Shown here piece by piece: positions 3,404 through 12,540 of a stretch of DNA of 64,000 nt (its first letter is position 1; each line of letters begins with the position of its first letter). The stretch lies in contig JAFUMO010000050.1 in the NCBI GenBank assembly GCA_017482565.1, positions 20,295-84,294 of the forward strand, in the 5' to 3' direction. Position numbers and translations under genes: made by a program. Source of the stretch: Bacteroidales bacterium (GTDB lineage: Bacteria; Bacteroidota; Bacteroidia; Bacteroidales; UBA932). The notes below the pieces were generated by a model, which was given only the letters and a program-made list of their open reading frames with translations, ran no database searches and was not told the DNA's origin.

Positions 3404-4432
3404 CTATAGGATTGTGCACCAGCCGTGTTTGTCCTCTATTTCGCCGTATTGGATGCCGGTGAGGGTTTCGTAGAGCTTGCGGCTCTTAGGGCCGCATTCG
3501 TCGCCGTATGGGTATGATGCGGTTACTGAGTCTGCTGCAAGTTTTTCCTTGTCTTCCACGAGCTTTACAGGGGTGATCACTACCGCTGTTCCGCACTGGC
3601 CCACCTCTTCAAATGTTGAGAGTTCCTCTACAGGAATGTCTCTTCTCTCCACCTCCATTCCAAGGTCTTCAGCCACCTGAATGAGTGATTTGTTGGTGAT
3701 TGAAGGGAGTACGGTCCTTGAGCAAGGGGTTATGTATTTGTTTCCCTTTATGCCAAAGAAGTTGGCTGATGAGAACTCATCTATATTCTTGGTCTCAGGG
3801 TTGAGGAACAATACATCCTTGTAGCCCTGTTTTACAGCTACTCCGGTTGCATACATTGCACAGGCATAGTTGCCGCCCACCTTGAACGAGCCGCTGCCAT
3901 TAGGGGCCGCACGGTCATAATCCCTTGCTATTACGGTCTTGATAGGGTCAAGCACCTTTCCTGCGTATGAACCTACAGGGAGGGTAATTACCATAAACAT
4001 AATGCCGTCCTGCTGCGGTACAAGGTTGATTGAAGGGATTGTTGTGATGAGGATAGGACGGATATACAATGATGCCCTCAGTTCATAAGGAGGCAGGAAA
4101 TCAATGTTTTCCTGTACTGCCTGGGTACACATCTTCTTGAAGAGTTCTTCGTCGGGACTGGGGATACCCAAAAATCCTGCAGAGCTCTGCATCCTCTTGG
4201 CATTCTGGTCCATACGGAAAATCCTAACCTTGCCGTCCTTTCCGCGGAAAGCCTTCAGCCCCTCAAAGCATGACATTCCGTAATGCAATGATGGTGAGAA
4301 TACTGTAAGGTTCAATGAATCTGCACTCTGGCTCTCAATCGGGCCCCATTTGCCGTCTTTGTAAAGGCATGTGAGAACCGTATTTGTCTTTGAATATGAG
4401 AATGACAGTTTTGTCCAGTCCATGTTTTTCAT
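3404..4432 (-). CDS. ilvE: Branched-chain amino acid aminotransferase
   Basis: Class IV PLP aminotransferase of 342 residues that makes the last step to Val, Leu and Ile from their 2-oxo acids. The PLP lysine is in the FKVGGNYA motif, and the FSSANFFGI motif is typical of the family. I chose the ATG at 4432 (MKNMDWTKLSFSY); a longer frame reaches back into ilvA but adds a non-homologous stretch. It is the last gene of the ilvD-B-N-C-A-E operon, starting 19 bases after the ilvA stop, and is followed by a strong terminator. Confidence 0.93.
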   Translation of the reverse strand: MKNMDWTKLSFSYSKTNTVLTCLYKDGKWGPIESQSADSLNLTVFSPSLHYGMSCFEGLKAFRGKDGKVRIFRMDQNAKRMQSSAGFLGIPSPDEELFKKMCTQAVQENIDFLPPYELRASLYIRPILITTIPSINLVPQQDGIMFMVITLPVGSYAGKVLDPIKTVIARDYDRAAPNGSGSFKVGGNYACAMYATGVAVKQGYKDVLFLNPETKNIDEFSSANFFGIKGNKYITPCSRTVLPSITNKSLIQVAEDLGMEVERRDIPVEELSTFEEVGQCGTAVVITPVKLVEDKEKLAADSVTASYPYGDECGPKSRKLYETLTGIQYGEIEDKHGWCTIL

Positions 4433-4451
4433 AATAGTGTAAGTTTTATAG

Positions 4452-5711
4452 TTAAACCAAAAATTCAAAGAGAAGAGGCTTGTCATTCAGATATTCGTAT
4501 GCAAATCCGTTCTCTTCCATCTTCTTTTCAAGTGTTTCAAGATCCTCGGGGTGTGCAAGCTCAATTCCAATTACAACCGGCCCCCTCTCCCTGCTGGTCT
4601 TTTTTGTGTAGGAGAAATGGGTGATGTCATCCTTTGGCCCCACAACATCCGTAATGAAGCTCCTCAATGCCCCGGCCCTCTGAGGGAACCTCACAATGAA
4701 GTAATGCTTCAGCCCCTGATGCAGCAGCGAGCGCTCCCTTATCTCCTCCATCCTGGTAATGTCATTGTTGCTGCCGCTTATGATGCATACAACATTCTTC
4801 CCCGCAATCTTATCCTTGTACTGTTCCAGCGCCGCAACCGCCAGTGCCCCTGCAGGCTCAACCACAATGGCATTCCTGTTGTACATTTCAAGGATTGAGG
4901 TGCACACAGCCCCCTCCGGCACAGTTATGATGTCATCCAGCACCTGGGAACAGATATTGTAGGTATAGTTGCCCACTTTCCTTACAGCCGCCCCATCCAC
5001 AAAGTTATTGATGGATTCCAGCTCCACTACCCTGCCTGCCTTGAATGACTCCTTCATTCCTGGTGCCCCTTCAGGTTCCACTCCAATGAGCTTTGTATTG
5101 GGGCTCATCTGTCTGATGCAGGCTCCAAGGCCGGAGGCCAGTCCGCCGCCACCTATCGGGATGAAGATATAATCTACAGGTTCCTTACACTCCTGGAGGA
5201 TTTCCATACCTATTGTGGCCTGTCCCTCAATGATCTGAGGGTCATCAAACGGCGGGATGAAAATTTTTCCCTCCCGGGCCGCAAATGAGACTGCCTCCCT
5301 GTTTGCCTCATCAAAATTGTCTCCGAAGAGGATAATCTCAATGTTGCCGTTGCCGAACATCCGCACCTGCTGGATCTTCTGCCTTGGAGTAGTCTTTGGC
5401 ATATATATATACCCCTTTATCCCCAGCCTGTTGCAGGAGAACGCAACTCCCTGGGCATGGTTGCCGGCACTGGCACAAACTACGCCACAGGCGCTTTGTT
5501 CCGCAGAAAGGTTGCGTATTTTATTATAGGCCCCCCTTATCTTGTAGGAGCGCACTATCTGCAGGTCCTCCCTCTTGAGGAGGATATTTGCATTATATTT
5601 TGCCCCAAGGTAAGGGTTTGAAGCAAGGGGCGTTGGGGCAAGTATCTCCCCCAACGTTATCCTTGCAGCTGATATCTTGTGCAGTTGTGGAAAGTATTGC
5701 GTGCTGTCCAT
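4452..5711 (-). CDS. ilvA: Threonine dehydratase (threonine ammonia-lyase)
   Basis: A 419-residue PLP enzyme that converts threonine to 2-oxobutyrate, the entry to isoleucine. The PLP lysine is in RSYKIRGAYNK (about residue 57), and the phosphate loop is GGGGLASGLG. Residues about 325-419 form a single ACT-like regulatory domain, so the protein is shorter than E. coli IlvA (514, two such domains). Its place in the ilv operon, rather than next to a degradative cluster, supports a biosynthetic, isoleucine-inhibited form. Confidence 0.93.
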   Translation of the reverse strand: MDSTQYFPQLHKISAARITLGEILAPTPLASNPYLGAKYNANILLKREDLQIVRSYKIRGAYNKIRNLSAEQSACGVVCASAGNHAQGVAFSCNRLGIKGYIYMPKTTPRQKIQQVRMFGNGNIEIILFGDNFDEANREAVSFAAREGKIFIPPFDDPQIIEGQATIGMEILQECKEPVDYIFIPIGGGGLASGLGACIRQMSPNTKLIGVEPEGAPGMKESFKAGRVVELESINNFVDGAAVRKVGNYTYNICSQVLDDIITVPEGAVCTSILEMYNRNAIVVEPAGALAVAALEQYKDKIAGKNVVCIISGSNNDITRMEEIRERSLLHQGLKHYFIVRFPQRAGALRSFITDVVGPKDDITHFSYTKKTSRERGPVVIGIELAHPEDLETLEKKMEENGFAYEYLNDKPLLFEFLV

Positions 5712-5726: not shown

Positions 5727-6773
5727 TTAGTTGTTCTCAGGACGCAAAGACCTCACGGTCTCTCCTGCCCTCCACATCTCGCTGTCCCTAAGCTCCTTCA
5801 ACTCTGCCTCAAGCTTAACCCTGTAGTCTGGCTTGCTGTTTGAGTCAATTGAGATCTGAGCCTCATTTCCGCATTTAACCTCGTTGTAAAGCTCATTGAA
5901 TACAGGTTTGGTTGCATCGCGGAACTTCTTCCACCAGTCGAGGGCACCTCTCTGTGCAGTTGTAGAGCAGTTTGCATACATCCAGTCCATACCGTTCTCT
6001 GCAATCAGCGGCATAAGGCTCTGTGAAAGCTCCTCCACTGTCTCGTTGAATGCCTCTGAAGGGGTGTGGCCGTTCTCACGCAATGTCTCGTACTGGGCTG
6101 CAAACAATCCCTGGATAGCACCCATAAGTGAGCCGCGCTCTCCTGTAAGGTCTGAATATACCTCCCTCTTGAATGTGGTCTCAAAGAGATAACCGCTGCC
6201 TATACCTACTCCAAGGGCAATTACCCTGTCGTATGCCTTTCCGGTTGCATCCTGGTAGATTGCGTATGAAGAGTTCAATCCCCTCCCCTCAAGGAAAAGC
6301 CTTCTGAGTGAAGTTCCTGAGCCTTTAGGGGCAACCATGATCACATCAACATCTGCAGGTGGAACAATGCCTGTACGGTCATTGTAAGTGATGCCAAAGC
6401 CATGTGAGAAATACAACGCCTTGCCTGCTGTAAGGTGTTTCTTTACTGTTGGCCAAACAGCAATCTGCCCTGCATCTGAAAGGAGGAACTCAATGATGGT
6501 AGCCTTCTGGCATGCCTCCTCTATCTCAAACAGGTCCTTGCCCGGTACCCAGCCGTCTGCAACAGCCTTGTCCCAGGTCTTTGAATCCTTTCTCTGGCCT
6601 ACAATCACATTGAAGCCGTTATCCTTAAGGTTGAGCGCCTGTCCCGGGCCCTGGACACCATATCCTATAACTGCAACTGTCTCGTTTGCCAATACTTCTT
6701 TTGCCTTTTCCAATGTAAACTCGGCGCGGGTAACTACTTGCTCCTCAACACCACCAAAATTCAATTTTGCCAT
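5727..6773 (-). CDS. ilvC: Ketol-acid reductoisomerase
   Basis: A 348-residue enzyme for the second common step of Val/Ile synthesis (isomerisation and NADPH-linked reduction of acetohydroxy acids, Mg2+ dependent). The Rossmann motif AVIGYGVQGPGQ is near residue 35 and the cofactor loop GQRKDSKTW follows. The PKGSGTSLRRLF region and long C-terminal knotted domain fit the Bacteroidetes type. It lies 15 bases before ilvA and 6 after ilvN. Confidence 0.95.
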   Translation of the reverse strand: MAKLNFGGVEEQVVTRAEFTLEKAKEVLANETVAVIGYGVQGPGQALNLKDNGFNVIVGQRKDSKTWDKAVADGWVPGKDLFEIEEACQKATIIEFLLSDAGQIAVWPTVKKHLTAGKALYFSHGFGITYNDRTGIVPPADVDVIMVAPKGSGTSLRRLFLEGRGLNSSYAIYQDATGKAYDRVIALGVGIGSGYLFETTFKREVYSDLTGERGSLMGAIQGLFAAQYETLRENGHTPSEAFNETVEELSQSLMPLIAENGMDWMYANCSTTAQRGALDWWKKFRDATKPVFNELYNEVKCGNEAQISIDSNSKPDYRVKLEAELKELRDSEMWRAGETVRSLRPENN

Positions 6774-6779
6774 AGTACT

Positions 6780-7013
6780 TTAATTTATATATGCTTTCTT
6801 AATTTCCACTATATTGTTTATCTGACTTACAATCCTCTCAACCAGCTCTTTGTGCGCAGCCCAGCAGGTAATCCTGTACTCGCCCCACTCAGGCGCTGTC
6901 TTTGAGAACTCAAAACTCTCAACATCAATTCTTTTCTGCAGATACAGAGTTGAAATCCTGTTCAATATGTCCAACCTGTTCTTTCCTTCTGCCGTTACCG
7001 TAAACTTTTCCAT
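6780..7013 (-). CDS. ilvN: Acetolactate synthase small (regulatory) subunit
   Basis: A 77-residue ACT-domain protein (FTVTAEGKNRLDILNRISTL) that would bind valine and regulate IlvB. It is short, with one ACT domain and no C-terminal extension, close to the short IlvM/IlvN form. It sits 14 bases after ilvB and before ilvC, the usual order. Confidence 0.88.
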   Translation of the reverse strand: MEKFTVTAEGKNRLDILNRISTLYLQKRIDVESFEFSKTAPEWGEYRITCWAAHKELVERIVSQINNIVEIKKAYIN

Positions 7014-7027
7014 AATCTAAAAGCCTA

Positions 7028-8728
7028 TTATTTGAAAATTATATCATTCAATGTTTTTCCTGCAGGAATCATCGGGAATACATTTTCCTGCTCTACCATG
7101 GCCGCCTCAAGGAAGAACGGCCCGTCATGCCGCATCATCTGCTCCACCGCAGCCTCCAGCTCGCCTACATTCTCCACTCTGGCATATTTAATTCCGTATG
7201 AGGCTGAAAGCATCTTGAAATCCGGATTTACCAGATGGGTAAATGCGTATCTCCTCTCAAAGAACAGTTCCTGCCACTGCCTTACCATTCCCAGGTAAGA
7301 GTTGTTAAGGAGGACTATTTTAACCGGAATCCCTGTCTGGAGTATCGTTCCAAGCTCCTGTATGTTCATCTGGAGCCCGCCGTCACCGGAAAACAGGACA
7401 ACGTCACAATTTGGGTTGCCCGCCTTTGCCCCTATTGCTGCAGGGAGGCCGAATCCCATTGTTCCAAGACCTCCTGAGGTTACCCAGTTCATGTTCCCTT
7501 CCAGCTTTGAGTATCTTGCAGCGAACATCTGGTTCTGCCCCACATCAGTTACAATAACCTTAGGCTTCTCACCAGCTTTTATAACCGCATCCACAACCTG
7601 AGCCATTGTAAGGGTTGCCGAATTGAGCTGCGGCCCCATCACATTCTCCAGCTCAAACGCCCTCTTCACCCTATAGAAATCCATCCACTCACCTCTCTCC
7701 TTATATTCAAGCTTCCCACACAGAGCCTCCAGGAATACCTTTGCATCACTCTGGAGTGTAAGATGAGCCTTCACATTCTTGTCAAACTCAGCCATATCTA
7801 TATCCACGTGGATAATCTTGGCCTTTGGAGCATATCCCTTCACCTCGCCTGTAACCCTGTCTGAGAACCTCATTCCCACAGCAAGAATCACATCTGCATT
7901 CTGGGTCATTGCATTTGGGGCCACATTTCCGTGCATTCCCACCATTCCCACATAATTAGGGTCATCCTGTGCAATTGCACCCATTCCAAGGAGGGTAACC
8001 GCTACCGGAATATTTGCCTTGTCCGCACACTCCTTCAACATTCCACATCCTCCCGATATAATTACGCCGTGTCCTGCAATGATAAGAGGCTTCTGCGCAT
8101 TGTTCAGGTCACGGGCTGCCTCCTCCACCTTCGCCTGGAACCTTGGATCCTCAGGACAAGACTCCTTGCCCAACATCCTTACAGCCTCCTCCTTGTTGTA
8201 GCTGTAGTCCATCATCTCCACCTGGGCATTCCTGGTAAGGCTGATAAGTACCGGGCCCGGCCTGCCGCTCTGTGCAATATGGAATGCCTGAGCCATAACT
8301 GTAGGGATCTCAGCCGCAGAGGAGATCTGATAGCTCCATTTTGTGATTGGAATGGTAATGCCAATCATATCAGCCTCCTGGAAGAAATTTGTGCCAAGCT
8401 TGTCTGCATTCACTTGGGCTGTGATGCATATCACAGGGGTTGAATCCATCATGGCATCGGCTATTCCGGTAATGAAATTGGTTGCACCAGGGCCCGCTGT
8501 AGCCATACATATACCAACCTTTCCGGTACTCCTGGCGTAACCCTCAGCGGCATGCACCGCACCCTGTTCATGCCTTACAAGCACATGTTCCAGTCTGTCC
8601 ATGTAATCATACAGCTTGTCATATACAGGCATTATGGTACCACCAGGATAACCGAATATCGTGTCAACTCCCTCGTCCAAAAATGTATTCATAAGAGCTT
8701 CCGCTCCGCTCATTCTCCTTGTTTCCAT
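7028..8728 (-). CDS. ilvB: Acetolactate synthase large (catalytic) subunit
   Basis: ThDP enzyme of 566 residues that condenses two pyruvates, or pyruvate and 2-oxobutyrate. The N-terminal domain has [13 protein letters not shown] with the ThDP-activating Glu in [16 protein letters not shown]. The C-terminal ThDP motif is [21 protein letters not shown] use the ATG at 8728 ([12 protein letters not shown]); a TTG seven codons... six codons upstream at 8746 would overlap ilvD and adds nothing conserved. The gap from ilvD is 10 bases. Confidence 0.94.
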
Positions 8729-8738
8729 TTCAAAATCT

Positions 8739-10559
8739 TTAATCAATAATCCTTACTCCTCCAATATCTGCACTTCCTGCCAATGATGCGTATGCCTTCA
8801 GTGCCCTGCTTATCTTCCTTTCCCTGTTCCTTGGCCTGTATCCGTTGCCCTTCTCCAACGCTTCCCTCCTGCCCTGCAGCTCTTCCTGTGAGAGTTCCAC
8901 ATTTATCTTCCTCTCAGGGATATCTATTGTTATTGTGTCTCCATTCTCTATCAGTGCTACAGGCCCCTTGCTTGCAGCTTCCGGTGAAATGTGCCCTATT
9001 GAGAGGCCGCTTGTACCGCCAGAGAACCTTCCGTCGGTGATGAGGGCGCAATCCTTGTCAAGTTTCATGCTCTTGAGGAAAGAGGTTGGATAAAGCATCT
9101 CCTGCATTCCCGGCCCCCCTTTTGGCCCCTCATACCTTATCACTACCACATCCCCTTTCTTCACCTTTCCCCCGAGGATTCCGTCCACCGCATCCTCCTG
9201 GCTCTCAAATACCACTGCAGTTCCCTTGAACTTGAGGATATGCTCCGCCACTCCTGCTGTCTTAACTATACATCCGTCGGGAGCTATGTTTCCATAAAGT
9301 ACTGCAAGTCCTCCGTCTTTTGTATAGGCGTGCTCCAGATCCCTGATGCACCCCGCCGCCCTGTCTGTATCCAGCTCCTTATAGGTACTTTCATTTTCCC
9401 CCATATTTACCGTACGGACATAACCGGGAGCCGAATGGTATAGGGCCTGCGCCCACTCAGAAGCTATGTTACAATTTGTTACATTACAATCTGTAAGCGC
9501 GTCCTGTAATGAAGGATAGTCAACTCTTCCGGCTGAACAGTTCAGATAACCGCCTTTTGCCAACTCCTGCATAATTCCCATAACGCCTCCTGCACGGTTC
9601 ACATCCTGTATGTGGTATTCACAGTTGGGGGCAACCTTGCAAAGTACCGGTATCTGCCGTGAAAGCCTGTCCACATCCTTCATAGTGAAGTCAACTCCCG
9701 CCTCGTGCGCAATTGCAAGGAGGTGCAGGACTGTATTTGTTGAGCCGCCCATTGCTATATCAAGCATCATGGCGTTCTCAAAAGCCTCTTTTGTTGCTAT
9801 TGAACGGGGCAGGACCGCCTCATTTCCATTGAAATAATAATCATTTGCAAGCTCCACCACCAGCCTGGCTCCTTTTTCAAAAAGCCTTTTCCTGTTTGCA
9901 TGAGTTGCAAGCACGGTACCGTTACCCACCTGTGCAAGGCCCAATGCCTCTGTAAGGCAATTCATTGAGTTGGCTGTAAACATGCCTGAACAGCAGCCGC
10001 ATGTAGGGCATCCCTTCTCCTCGTACTCCTGAAGATCTTCTGCAGAAACCTGAGGATCTGCACCTTTTACCATTATATCCACAAGGTCACAATCCTTTCC
10101 CTTTACATTTCCCGCCTCCATTGGACCTCCGGAAACGAACACGGCAGGGATATTGAGCCTCATGGCTGCCATAAGCATACCGGGAGTTATCTTGTCACAA
10201 TTTGATATACAGATCATTGCATCAGCACAATGGGCATTGCACATATATTCAACACTGTCTGCAATTATCTCCCTTGAAGGCAAAGAATAAAGCATTCCGT
10301 CATGCCCCATTGCTATACCGTCATCTATTGCTATGGTATTGAATTCTGCCGCAAAGCAGCCTAGCTTCTCTATCTCACCTTTTACAAACTGTCCTATATC
10401 ATGCAAATGCACATGCCCCGGAACAAACTGGGTAAAAGAGTTCACTACAGCTATCACAGGTTTTCCAAAGTGTTTCTTCTCCATTCCGTTTGCCCTCCAC
10501 AGGGCCCTGGCTCCAGCCATCTTCTTTCCGTTTAAAGTCTTGCTGCTTCTGAGTTCCAT
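8739..10559 (-). CDS. ilvD: Dihydroxy-acid dehydratase
   Basis: A 606-residue iron-sulfur dehydratase, the third common step of Val/Ile synthesis. Cluster cysteines are visible in [10 protein letters not shown] and [11 protein letters not shown]. It is the first structural gene of the operon and begins 26 bases after the attenuator T run, so read-through of that terminator controls all six ilv genes. Confidence 0.95.
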
Positions 10560-10585: not shown

Positions 10586-10628
10586 AAAAAAAAAGACCGC
10601 TTAAGGAAGGAATCCATTAAGCGGTCTT
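10586..10628 (-). terminator. Attenuator (leader terminator) of the ilv operon
   Basis: On the minus strand the arms AAGACCGCTTAA (10628-10617) and TTAAGCGGTCTT (10604-10593) pair perfectly over 12 bp, followed by nine T. It lies between the leader peptide and ilvD. An alternative pairing joins 10640-10650 to 10610-10620 (10 of 11 bases) and overlaps the first arm and loop, which would act as the antiterminator. Confidence 0.88.
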
Positions 10629-10649
10629 GAATTTATAACTTAAAGGATT

Positions 10650-10772
10650 CTACATCATCATTGGAATAATAATCACCACCACAGACAGGGCAATAATAGA
10701 AATGGACACCAGCAGGTTCACTGCCAGGTTCTTCTGAATAGACATTCCTATTATGTTCTGTGTGCCGTTCAT
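10650..10772 (-). CDS. ilvL: ilv leader peptide (40 codons)
   Basis: An ATG frame of 40 codons rich in Ile, Val, Leu and Met. Codons 31-36 (10682-10665) are three Val then three Ile, in the context SVVVIIIP, followed by three Met and TAG. The same SVVVIIIP core occurs in the E. coli ilvGMEDA leader peptide. The stop codon touches the antiterminator arm at 10640-10650. A ribosome stalled at codons 31-36 would leave that arm free and block the terminator; one that reaches the stop would cover it and allow termination. This is the classical logic of branched-chain amino acid attenuation. The gene is too short for most annotation pipelines. Confidence 0.85.
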   Translation of the reverse strand: MNGTQNIIGMSIQKNLAVNLLVSISIIALSVVVIIIPMMM

Positions 10773-10809
10773 AATGATGTAAAATCTTCTGTTTTCCGTT
10801 CTAACGGTG

Positions 10810-10817
10810 CAAAGCTA
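10810..10817 (-). promoter_or_regulatory. -7 box (TAGCTTTG) of the ilv operon
   Basis: Minus-strand TAGCTTTG fits TAnnTTTG. The transcript would start near 10803, about 30 bases before the leader-peptide ATG. A good -33 TTTG at the right spacing is not evident. Confidence 0.55.
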
Positions 10818-10878: not shown

Positions 10879-12540
10879 TTACATACTGCGGATAAAGAAT
10901 GACCAGAGTTCGGCTTTCAAATCCTCCCAGGTCTTGGCTGTAGATGATGCATACTTCTGTGTGTAATTGTTAAGAAGCCTGGTCACCTCATCCTTCTTGC
11001 CCTCTTTAAGGAGCTGTGCAGCCTCTTTCTCTATAAGTGCATTCTCCTTCATCATCTGTGACTCATAATTTGCAACCTGCTCCTCAAGGAGATGCCTGGT
11101 CTTGTCCCAGTTGATGGTTGAAATCCTGTTTGTCTCCCTGTAAGACCATATTGCCGCATCTTCCCTATATCTGTGCTGGCCACATATGCCCCAATCCTTT
11201 GGAAGCTCTGTTACACCTGCATAAATAGGAATCCTCGGACTCTGTGCAGGGTTGTCAAATGAGAAGTAAGCAATACCGCCAATCTCATCAGGCAACCAGT
11301 CGCGGCACTGCATGATGTGAGAATATGAACACTGGATAACTGCAATTGTCCTTACCCTTGGGGTAACATCCTTCTTAAGTGAGTTGAGGAGGGTCCTCAT
11401 GTCTCCAGGCATGAATGTAGATACAGGATAAACGGTATCCTTATATGCTATTGTCTTGCCATCCTCTACCCTTCTCCTGTCAACCTCAATTGCAAGGTCC
11501 TTCACCTGGTCATACTCAGTACCTTCATATGTCTCGCGGTAAAATGCGAACATATCCTCTGGGGAAACCTTCTTCTCAGGCTTCACTGAGAAAGGAATCT
11601 CATCTGCATCATACTGGAGGTTCAATGAAGGGGCCAGAGTGCTCAACACAAAATACTCGCGGATTGAAAAAGGCTTCTTGCCGCTTGAAACAACCTTCCA
11701 GAAGATATAGTCTCCCTCACCGTCCCAGTATCCTATAGCTTTTGAGCGCTCCTTGAGGTCCTTTGAATACATGAAATTGTCGGGATCATTGAAATCAACC
11801 TTTCCTATTCTTGGGATATTTGCAGAAACTCCCACATGGTCATCAGGGATTCTCTGGGCAACCCATAGTGCTCCAGGCTTGTCTGCAGGGGCTTTCTTTG
11901 ATTTCTTTGCCTTTGGATCCGCAGGCAGCTTCCCGTTTCCATAAATCTCAAAATGCCATACCTCCTTCTTGTCTGCAACTGTAAGGCACTCACCGCCATC
12001 AGCATAGCCGTACTCCTCAGCCAACGCACCCATAACTGCAATAGCCTCCCTTGCTGTAGCACATCTCTCAAGAGCTATCCTCTCAAGTTCCTCAATCATG
12101 AAGAGGCCATCCTCCCTCTTGAGCTCCCTCTTGCCTACTGTAGTGGTCTCACCAATTGCAAGCTGCTTCTCATTCATACAAGGATATGCCACATTAAGGA
12201 ACCTGTATGTAGGTACTGCAGGAGCAGGAATCTCACCTTTCTTAACCACATTGCGCATATCATCCCTCTCCTCATTATGAAGCAGGCCCCAATAGATTGC
12301 CTGAAGCTCACCAGGCTTGTAGGTCTTGCTCTCTTCCATAGAAAGCCATGTGCGGTAATTTGAGTCACATGAATGTGCTGTCATAACCGAGCCGTCTGAA
12401 CTTGCATTTTTTCCAACCATAATTGAAGTACAGCTCTCCGCATAATTCTCATCATCCGGATGCCATCCGTAGCTCTGTGCAATTGCCGCCCCCGACATCA
12501 TCAGGCACACGGCTGCAACAAATAATCTTTTGATTTTCAT
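10879..12540 (-). CDS. C69-family dipeptidase, secreted
   Basis: A 553-residue protein with a signal peptide (residues 1-21, cleavage after AIAQ likely) and the peptidase C69 fold, an Ntn-hydrolase family that releases dipeptides. The expected nucleophile is Cys37 in ESCTSIMVGKNASSDGS. Further family signatures are the SYRETNRISTINWDKTR region and a C-terminal coiled helix. It probably works in the periplasm on diet- or host-derived peptides, which suits an amino-acid fermenter. It is a single-gene unit. An 18-base AT palindrome (10852-10869) lies just after the stop codon and may be a weak terminator. Confidence 0.88.
   Translation of the reverse strand: MKIKRLFVAAVCLMMSGAAIAQSYGWHPDDENYAESCTSIMVGKNASSDGSVMTAHSCDSNYRTWLSMEESKTYKPGELQAIYWGLLHNEERDDMRNVVKKGEIPAPAVPTYRFLNVAYPCMNEKQLAIGETTTVGKRELKREDGLFMIEELERIALERCATAREAIAVMGALAEEYGYADGGECLTVADKKEVWHFEIYGNGKLPADPKAKKSKKAPADKPGALWVAQRIPDDHVGVSANIPRIGKVDFNDPDNFMYSKDLKERSKAIGYWDGEGDYIFWKVVSSGKKPFSIREYFVLSTLAPSLNLQYDADEIPFSVKPEKKVSPEDMFAFYRETYEGTEYDQVKDLAIEVDRRRVEDGKTIAYKDTVYPVSTFMPGDMRTLLNSLKKDVTPRVRTIAVIQCSYSHIMQCRDWLPDEIGGIAYFSFDNPAQSPRIPIYAGVTELPKDWGICGQHRYREDAAIWSYRETNRISTINWDKTRHLLEEQVANYESQMMKENALIEKEAAQLLKEGKKDEVTRLLNNYTQKYASSTAKTWEDLKAELWSFFIRSM

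Follow-up and report, generated by a model that had tools for sequence, protein, structure and literature searches.

The branched-chain amino acid genes in this stretch of Bacteroidales DNA are very probably controlled by a ribosome-mediated transcription attenuator, which lies just upstream of ilvD and acts on an ilvD-ilvB-(ilvN)-ilvC-ilvA-ilvE operon. The window (the whole 64,000-nucleotide stretch that was analysed) carries the elements of this switch on the minus strand between 10586 and 10817, and the elements are conserved and covary in related bacteria. Ribosome-mediated attenuation is a known, textbook kind of control. What appears to be new, judged from sequence comparison, is its spread before ilvD across the order with no Rfam match, together with a family variant built on a helix between leader start and leader stop.

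The leader and its operon

The operon and its upstream neighbour are arranged as follows:

10879-12540, minus strand (the same strand as the ilv operon): dipeptidase-like gene upstream of the leader
8739..10559, minus strand: ilvD, dihydroxy-acid dehydratase (domain/family search)
7028..8746, minus strand: ilvB, acetolactate synthase large subunit (domain/family search)
6780..7013, minus strand: 77-aa ORF in the place of ilvN, the small subunit (position only)
5727..6773, minus strand: ilvC, ketol-acid reductoisomerase (domain/family search)
4452..5711, minus strand: ilvA, threonine ammonia-lyase (domain/family search)
3404..4486, minus strand: ilvE, branched-chain aminotransferase (domain/family search)

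The operon looks patchy within the genus, because ilvD is present in only 14 of 37 genomes, which are drafts of 73-96% completeness. Elsewhere in the window, the minus strand at 912-1784 gives a weak match, under the curated cut-off, to the EACC1-associated caspase domain.

The leader itself contains the following features:

10810..10817, minus strand: putative -7 box TAGCTTTG of a Bacteroidetes-type promoter (pattern match to TAnnTTTG)
10771..10786, minus strand: arm 1, the leader start region (window fold; partner-swap tests in the family)
10650..10772, minus strand: leader peptide ORF of 40 codons, MNGTQNIIGMSIQKNLAVNLLVSISIIALSVVVIIIPMMM (sequence; start codon predicted)
10665..10682, minus strand: control codons, Val x3 (GTG x3) and Ile x3 (ATT x3) (sequence)
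10646..10661, minus strand: arm 2a, the partner of arm 1, comprising the last codons, the stop and the first antiterminator bases (fold; swap tests)
10639..10650, minus strand: arm 2, the antiterminator 5' arm GAATCCTTTAAG (fold against shuffles; order-wide antiterminator scan; family alignment)
10610..10621, minus strand: arm 3, the antiterminator 3' arm CTTAATGGATTC, inside the terminator 5' arm and loop (same tests as arm 2)
10593..10628, minus strand: intrinsic terminator hairpin, 12 bp (fold against shuffles; order-wide scan; family covariation)
10586..10594, minus strand: terminator T run of nine T, two of them inside the stem (sequence)

We take TAnnTTTG to be the -7 consensus of Bacteroidetes-type promoters, and the box was assigned on that basis; the same motif is found upstream of the leader in most same-genus relatives among those listed. 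Transcription is assumed to start at about 10803. On our own reading of the window sequence, no clear -33 TTG stands at the usual distance from the -7 box. The leader ORF runs from an ATG at 10772 to a TAG at 10650, and its last codons (three GTG, three ATT, one CCA and three ATG before the TAG) would give the peptide the C-terminus SVVVIIIPMMM. On this predicted translation, a run of codons for the products of the pathway, Val3-Ile3, stands in a short ORF before the ilv genes.

The first G of GAATCCTTTAAG is also the last base of the leader stop codon, and this arm pairs with CTTAATGGATTC at 11 of 12 positions. The initial annotation had described a slightly shorter stretch of the same helix (10 of 11 bases, 10640-10650 with 10610-10620), and the -7 box, 40-codon leader, Val3-Ile3 run, stop codon touching an antiterminator arm and 12-bp terminator with nine T that it had reported were likewise found in place. 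The terminator stem (10628-10617 with 10604-10593, 12 bp) lies between the leader ORF and the first gene, leaving 26 nt between the T run and the ilvD start, and formation of the antiterminator would exclude it. Each structure is more stable than expected from its composition, with none of 200 shuffles as good in any case: the terminator alone folds at -19.6 kcal/mol (z -6.7), the antiterminator alone at -11.2 kcal/mol (z -4.5), and the whole leader with a z of -5.0. A general terminator scan omitted the window terminator, probably on account of its loop limit of 8.

The arrangement suggests how the switch would work. With isoleucine and valine plentiful, the ribosome would reach the stop codon and cover arm 2, the terminator would form, and RNA polymerase would stop near 10586. 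If charged tRNA for isoleucine (or valine) ran short, the ribosome would stall just before arm 2, leaving arm 2 to pair with arm 3 and the operon to be transcribed.

Conservation before ilvD and other amino acid operons

The spread of the leader was assessed in 156 Bacteroidales ilvD upstream regions, 27 from a search for relatives, 29 from an order-wide search and 100 fetched by place; 129 of them were taken from the order-search matches listed, beyond the loci of the relatives search. A fragment (L028) and a duplicate of L016 (L044) were removed ahead of all counts. A region passed the scan if it had a terminator and, ahead of it, a short ORF in which 6 or more of 8 codons were for I, L or V; these thresholds were our own choice. 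This combination was found in 108 of the 156 regions, and in none of 312 dinucleotide shuffles and none of 156 reverse complements, so its occurrence before ilvD is beyond chance. Passing leaders occur in at least one member of 38 of 48 families and in none of the other 10, where families are the labels supplied with the genome collection and the loci are related, so that counts do not represent independent events. Within the window's own family 14 of 16 loci pass; of the two that do not, L002 shows the same layout and a weaker run. Counting against generality, 48 of the 156 regions were missed by the scan; a looser scan finds an I/L/V-rich short ORF in 21 of these 48, some of them plainly chance.

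A separate set of 80 ilvD loci with organism titles gave 35 that pass the leader-plus-terminator threshold, among them Odoribacter laneus, Heminiphilus faecis and Labilibaculum sp.; at least one of the 35 (L279) looks spurious. The closest IlvD in this set is 75% identical, some titles name other phyla, and some loci have little upstream DNA. Bacteroides graminisolvens has the leader ORF and no terminator accepted by the scan. Taken together, the sequence comparisons suggest that the ilvD attenuator is widespread in Bacteroidales. One locus labelled as belonging to the window's genus, L021 (genome G035), encodes an IlvD only 66% identical to that of the window and has a leader and antiterminator that are not of the family type; horizontal transfer or misbinning is possible there.

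The antiterminator is conserved in kind along with the control codons. The search covered the stretch from the last control codon to the terminator and looked for a helix to the terminator 5' arm or loop; in 98 of the 108 loci this helix beat 95 or more of 100 mononucleotide shuffles. When partners are swapped between loci, own pairs average -16.2 kcal/mol and crossed pairs -10.7 kcal/mol, with a median rank of 5 of 108 for the own partner. Outside the window's family the arm mostly begins within the last codons or the stop codon, and frequent arm pairs are TGAGAAAGGTA/AGCCTTTCTCA, GAGAATGG/CCATTCTC and GGTGGAAAGG/CCTTTCCACC; inside the family GGAATCCATTA commonly faces TAATGGATTC, often about 6 bases past the stop. 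In a 10-locus family alignment, both sides change at 12 of 12 terminator pairs (0/500 shuffles). The antiterminator in that alignment has 82% of its cells paired and double changes at 3 of 11 pairs, a count reached by 11 of 500 shuffles, so that its covariation within the family appears modest and weaker than that of the terminator. The ribosome-stall reading offered by the initial annotation is thus supported by most ilvD upstream regions of the order, where control codons and stems are kept in kind as the sequence around them changes.

That change of sequence around a constant I/L/V run also bears on a quite different reading, that the leader is a metabolite-binding riboswitch or a T-box with no leader peptide. 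In its favour, the region is a 5' leader with alternative structures ahead of an amino acid operon. In the window and 20 sources, however, no Rfam family reaches its gathering score, and the best sub-threshold E-values include leader families (Phe_leader, 0.098; Trp_leader, 0.13; both weak). We regard this reading as extremely unlikely.

Leaders matched to their products also occur before other operons of the same genome. A His5 leader, MRLFTNIRHHHHHILQKIR, stands before hisG (L289/L296, contig C27), with a terminator and an antiterminator equalled by 1 of 500 shuffles, and a Leu-rich leader, MYNLPNNHLRLLLYC, stands before leuA (L290/L295, contig C70), again with a terminator and with an antiterminator equalled by 11 of 500 shuffles. 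Leader codons and product therefore agree in three operons: Val/Ile with ilvD, His5 with hisG and Leu with leuA. A raw scan with no shuffle control shows a run of four or more His codons in a short ORF at 14 of 30 Bacteroidales hisG loci, with a terminator following at all 14. Among the control operons, neither trpE nor any chorismate-binding enzyme was found in the genome, and the 450 nt upstream of a thrA-like gene contain no product-rich leader and no terminator.

One might still suppose that the hairpin merely terminates the dipeptidase-like gene, with the short ORF and the alternative pairing incidental. That gene does lie upstream on the same strand, and the terminator would stop its transcripts too. 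However, gene and hairpin are separated by a promoter-like box and an I/V-rich ORF, and the remaining evidence given above (the empty shuffle and reverse-complement controls, the poorer pairing of swapped antiterminator partners, and the product-matched leaders before hisG and leuA) also argues for attenuation; we consider simple termination highly improbable.

Other orders of the phylum present a different picture. In 29 of 30 loci (L159-L188) ilvD is preceded by an I/L/V-rich ORF, 20-75 aa long and often 50-60 aa, with its stop 69-175 nt ahead of ilvD and mostly with no scan-detected terminator; for ilvD loci of other orders overall, 37 of 50 have no terminator by the scan. Several of the 30 have GGTCAATCCC-like arms right after the stop with a complement about 30-40 nt on, and 6 of the 30 have an exact inverted repeat of at least 8 bp after the stop. 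These are possibly a second type of branched-chain leader, on the evidence of their sequences. An Rfam scan of nine other-order loci gave no match except a SAM riboswitch (RF00162, 87.6 bits) elsewhere in L160, at 894-1004 on the minus strand, near the ilvD locus.

The frequent lack of a terminator in those orders would suit another ribosome-linked route, in which the pairing would regulate translation by exposing or hiding the ilvD start, or Rho would act on the leader, and the terminator would be secondary. In the window, however, the terminator is strong and covaries, and 50 nt separate the end of the pairing arms from the ilvD start. Such a route seems very unlikely here, and transcription attenuation remains the preferred reading.

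A helix between leader start and stop

The fold of the window includes a third, competing helix that the initial annotation did not contain. Positions 10786-10771, before and into the leader start codon, pair with 10661-10646, the last codons, the stop and the first antiterminator bases. A shuffle test for such a first arm in a single wide interval, over all 108 candidates, was largely negative: 14 of 108 candidates reached the 5% level, and the median z was -0.16. Applied to the window's family, the test gave 8 of 13 loci with at most 10 of 200 shuffles as good, and in one of them (L006) the best arm lies elsewhere in the leader. These results led to partner-swap tests.

The family comprises 16 loci, of which L021 and L154 stand outside the swap tests; leader start codons were our choice among in-frame ATGs. 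With the other 14 loci, own pairs of arm 1 and arm 2a score -17.7 and swapped pairs -10.4. With 10 dissimilar loci, which further omit the near copies L003, L005, L007 and L014, the values are -18.3 and -10.7, and none of 20000 permutations is as good. The signal peaks from ATG-24 to +20 and is absent from ATG+21 to +89 (p 0.37, 0.53), and this speaks against composition as the sole cause. Two other intervals give weak signals, ATG-75 (p 0.034) and ATG+66 (p 0.017). The comparisons thus point to a family variant, new here, in which the competing helix pairs the leader start region with the stop and antiterminator region, and does so with covariation.

Outside the family, the corresponding arm is placed differently. 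In 94 loci (L021 left out), with positions counted relative to arm 2, the partner is found inside the control codons or immediately ahead of them, 21-60 nt upstream of arm 2 (0/5000 permutations as good). The intervals at ATG+0 and ATG+21 also scored (0/5000 each); in short leaders they overlap the control codons and stop region, and positions were reset relative to arm 2 for that reason. A protector arm in or near the control codons is the textbook layout of an attenuator.

Within the window's family, the helix of the start region with arm 2a would favour termination when the leader is untranslated. A ribosome that stalled on the last Ile codons, or one that occupied the start codon, would open this helix. 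Since the helix includes the leader start region, leader initiation may be a second input. The family attenuator could accordingly be gated twice, opening either on a stall at the last Ile codons or on continued ribosome loading at the leader start behind the stalled one; we put this forward tentatively, as a possibility that falls somewhat short of an even chance.

Equilibrium folds, which ignore kinetics and represent the ribosome as a crude blocked footprint, support a second input only in part. For window RNA ending before the terminator 3' arm, the probability of the antiterminator is 0.27 with no ribosome, 0.99 with the start occupied and 0.00 with a ribosome at the stop. With the A site at Val1 or Ile1 it is 0.27 or 0.28, rising to 0.81 at Ile2 and 0.99 at Ile3; that stalls from Val1 to Ile1 leave it unraised counts against the model. 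Under another definition of the transcript, the values are 0.66 with no ribosome, 0.98 at both the start and the last control codon, and 0.00 at the stop.

Across 13 family loci the means are 0.67 with no ribosome, 0.94 with the start occupied, 0.86 at the last control codon and 0.41 at the stop. An occupied start raises the probability by more than 0.2 in 6 of the 13 and stalling does so in only 3. Against the proposal, the stop state is leaky (3 of 13 at 0.1 or less); with the antiterminator also favoured in the absence of a ribosome, these folds lend no support to a default-off state in the family. Outside the family, where L021 is counted here, an occupied start likewise gives a rise above 0.2 in 26 of 95 loci, and this too counts against the proposal. 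Those 95 loci average 0.59 with no ribosome. A ribosome early in the control run gives a mean of 0.90, one at the last control codon 0.45, and one at the stop 0.01, where 92 of 95 loci do not exceed 0.1. Ile makes up 27 of 39 residues in the last three control positions of the family and 67 of 285 elsewhere, which fits isoleucine as the main signal of the family.

Related systems and implications

The E. coli ilv attenuator works through three competing helices. Like the window, its ilvL leader of the ilvXGMEDA operon is a short ORF with Val and Ile runs before an ilv operon; ilvL also has Leu codons, and its first arm lies at the control codons rather than, as in the window's family, at the leader start region. 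The octamer SVVVIIIP is indeed shared with ilvL (MTALLRVISLVVISVVVIIIPPCGAALGRGKA), as the initial annotation had observed. Homology was rejected as the explanation: the leaders of four relatives with 85-86% identical IlvD end in AIIIP or NVIIIP, so the octamer reflects convergence on the codons, or chance, and not conservation of the peptide, and no sequence homology is claimed.

The phylum was reportedly named for leader-peptide attenuation in a 2004 survey by Vitreschak and colleagues. The Bacteroid-trp motif RF01692, presumably trp-related from its name, has no match to the ilv leader of the window. It is likewise a cis-regulatory candidate of Bacteroidetes, as presented in part of PMC2864571. 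The transcriptome study of Flavobacterium psychrophilum, in the section concerned, finds 'strong clues' that amino-acid operons are preceded by leader peptide attenuators; these candidates are in the same phylum and a different class or order, with hisG named as having a structured 5' element and ilv unmentioned in that section (PMC9723704). Small ORFs reminiscent of attenuation leaders are mentioned for B. thetaiotaomicron in a passage of PMC7366714. The initial annotation had held such leaders to be usually missed in Bacteroidetes annotation. As far as these passages go, attenuation has already been reported as likely in the phylum (PMC9723704), and the kind is therefore known, and less obscure than claimed. 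Neither an ilvD leader peptide of Bacteroidales nor the start-to-stop helix was found in the literature searched, most subscription journals being outside that search. In another phylum, the uORF attenuator of Corynebacterium ilvBNC is likewise leader-coded control of a branched-chain operon, a likeness drawn from description only in portions of PMC10272879 and PMC11857589.

The leaders described here offer comparative evidence that transcription and translation in Bacteroidales are coupled closely enough for ribosome-stall control. They supply more than 100 natural variants of one switch, and they point annotators to leader ORFs and early terminators upstream of ilvD, hisG and leuA. Should the start-to-stop helix act in the way suggested here, it would give an attenuator another means of fixing its default state, and under double gating leader initiation would be an input of its own beside charged isoleucyl-tRNA. 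A further prediction is that the level of ilv expression in these bacteria would depend on how much isoleucine is supplied.
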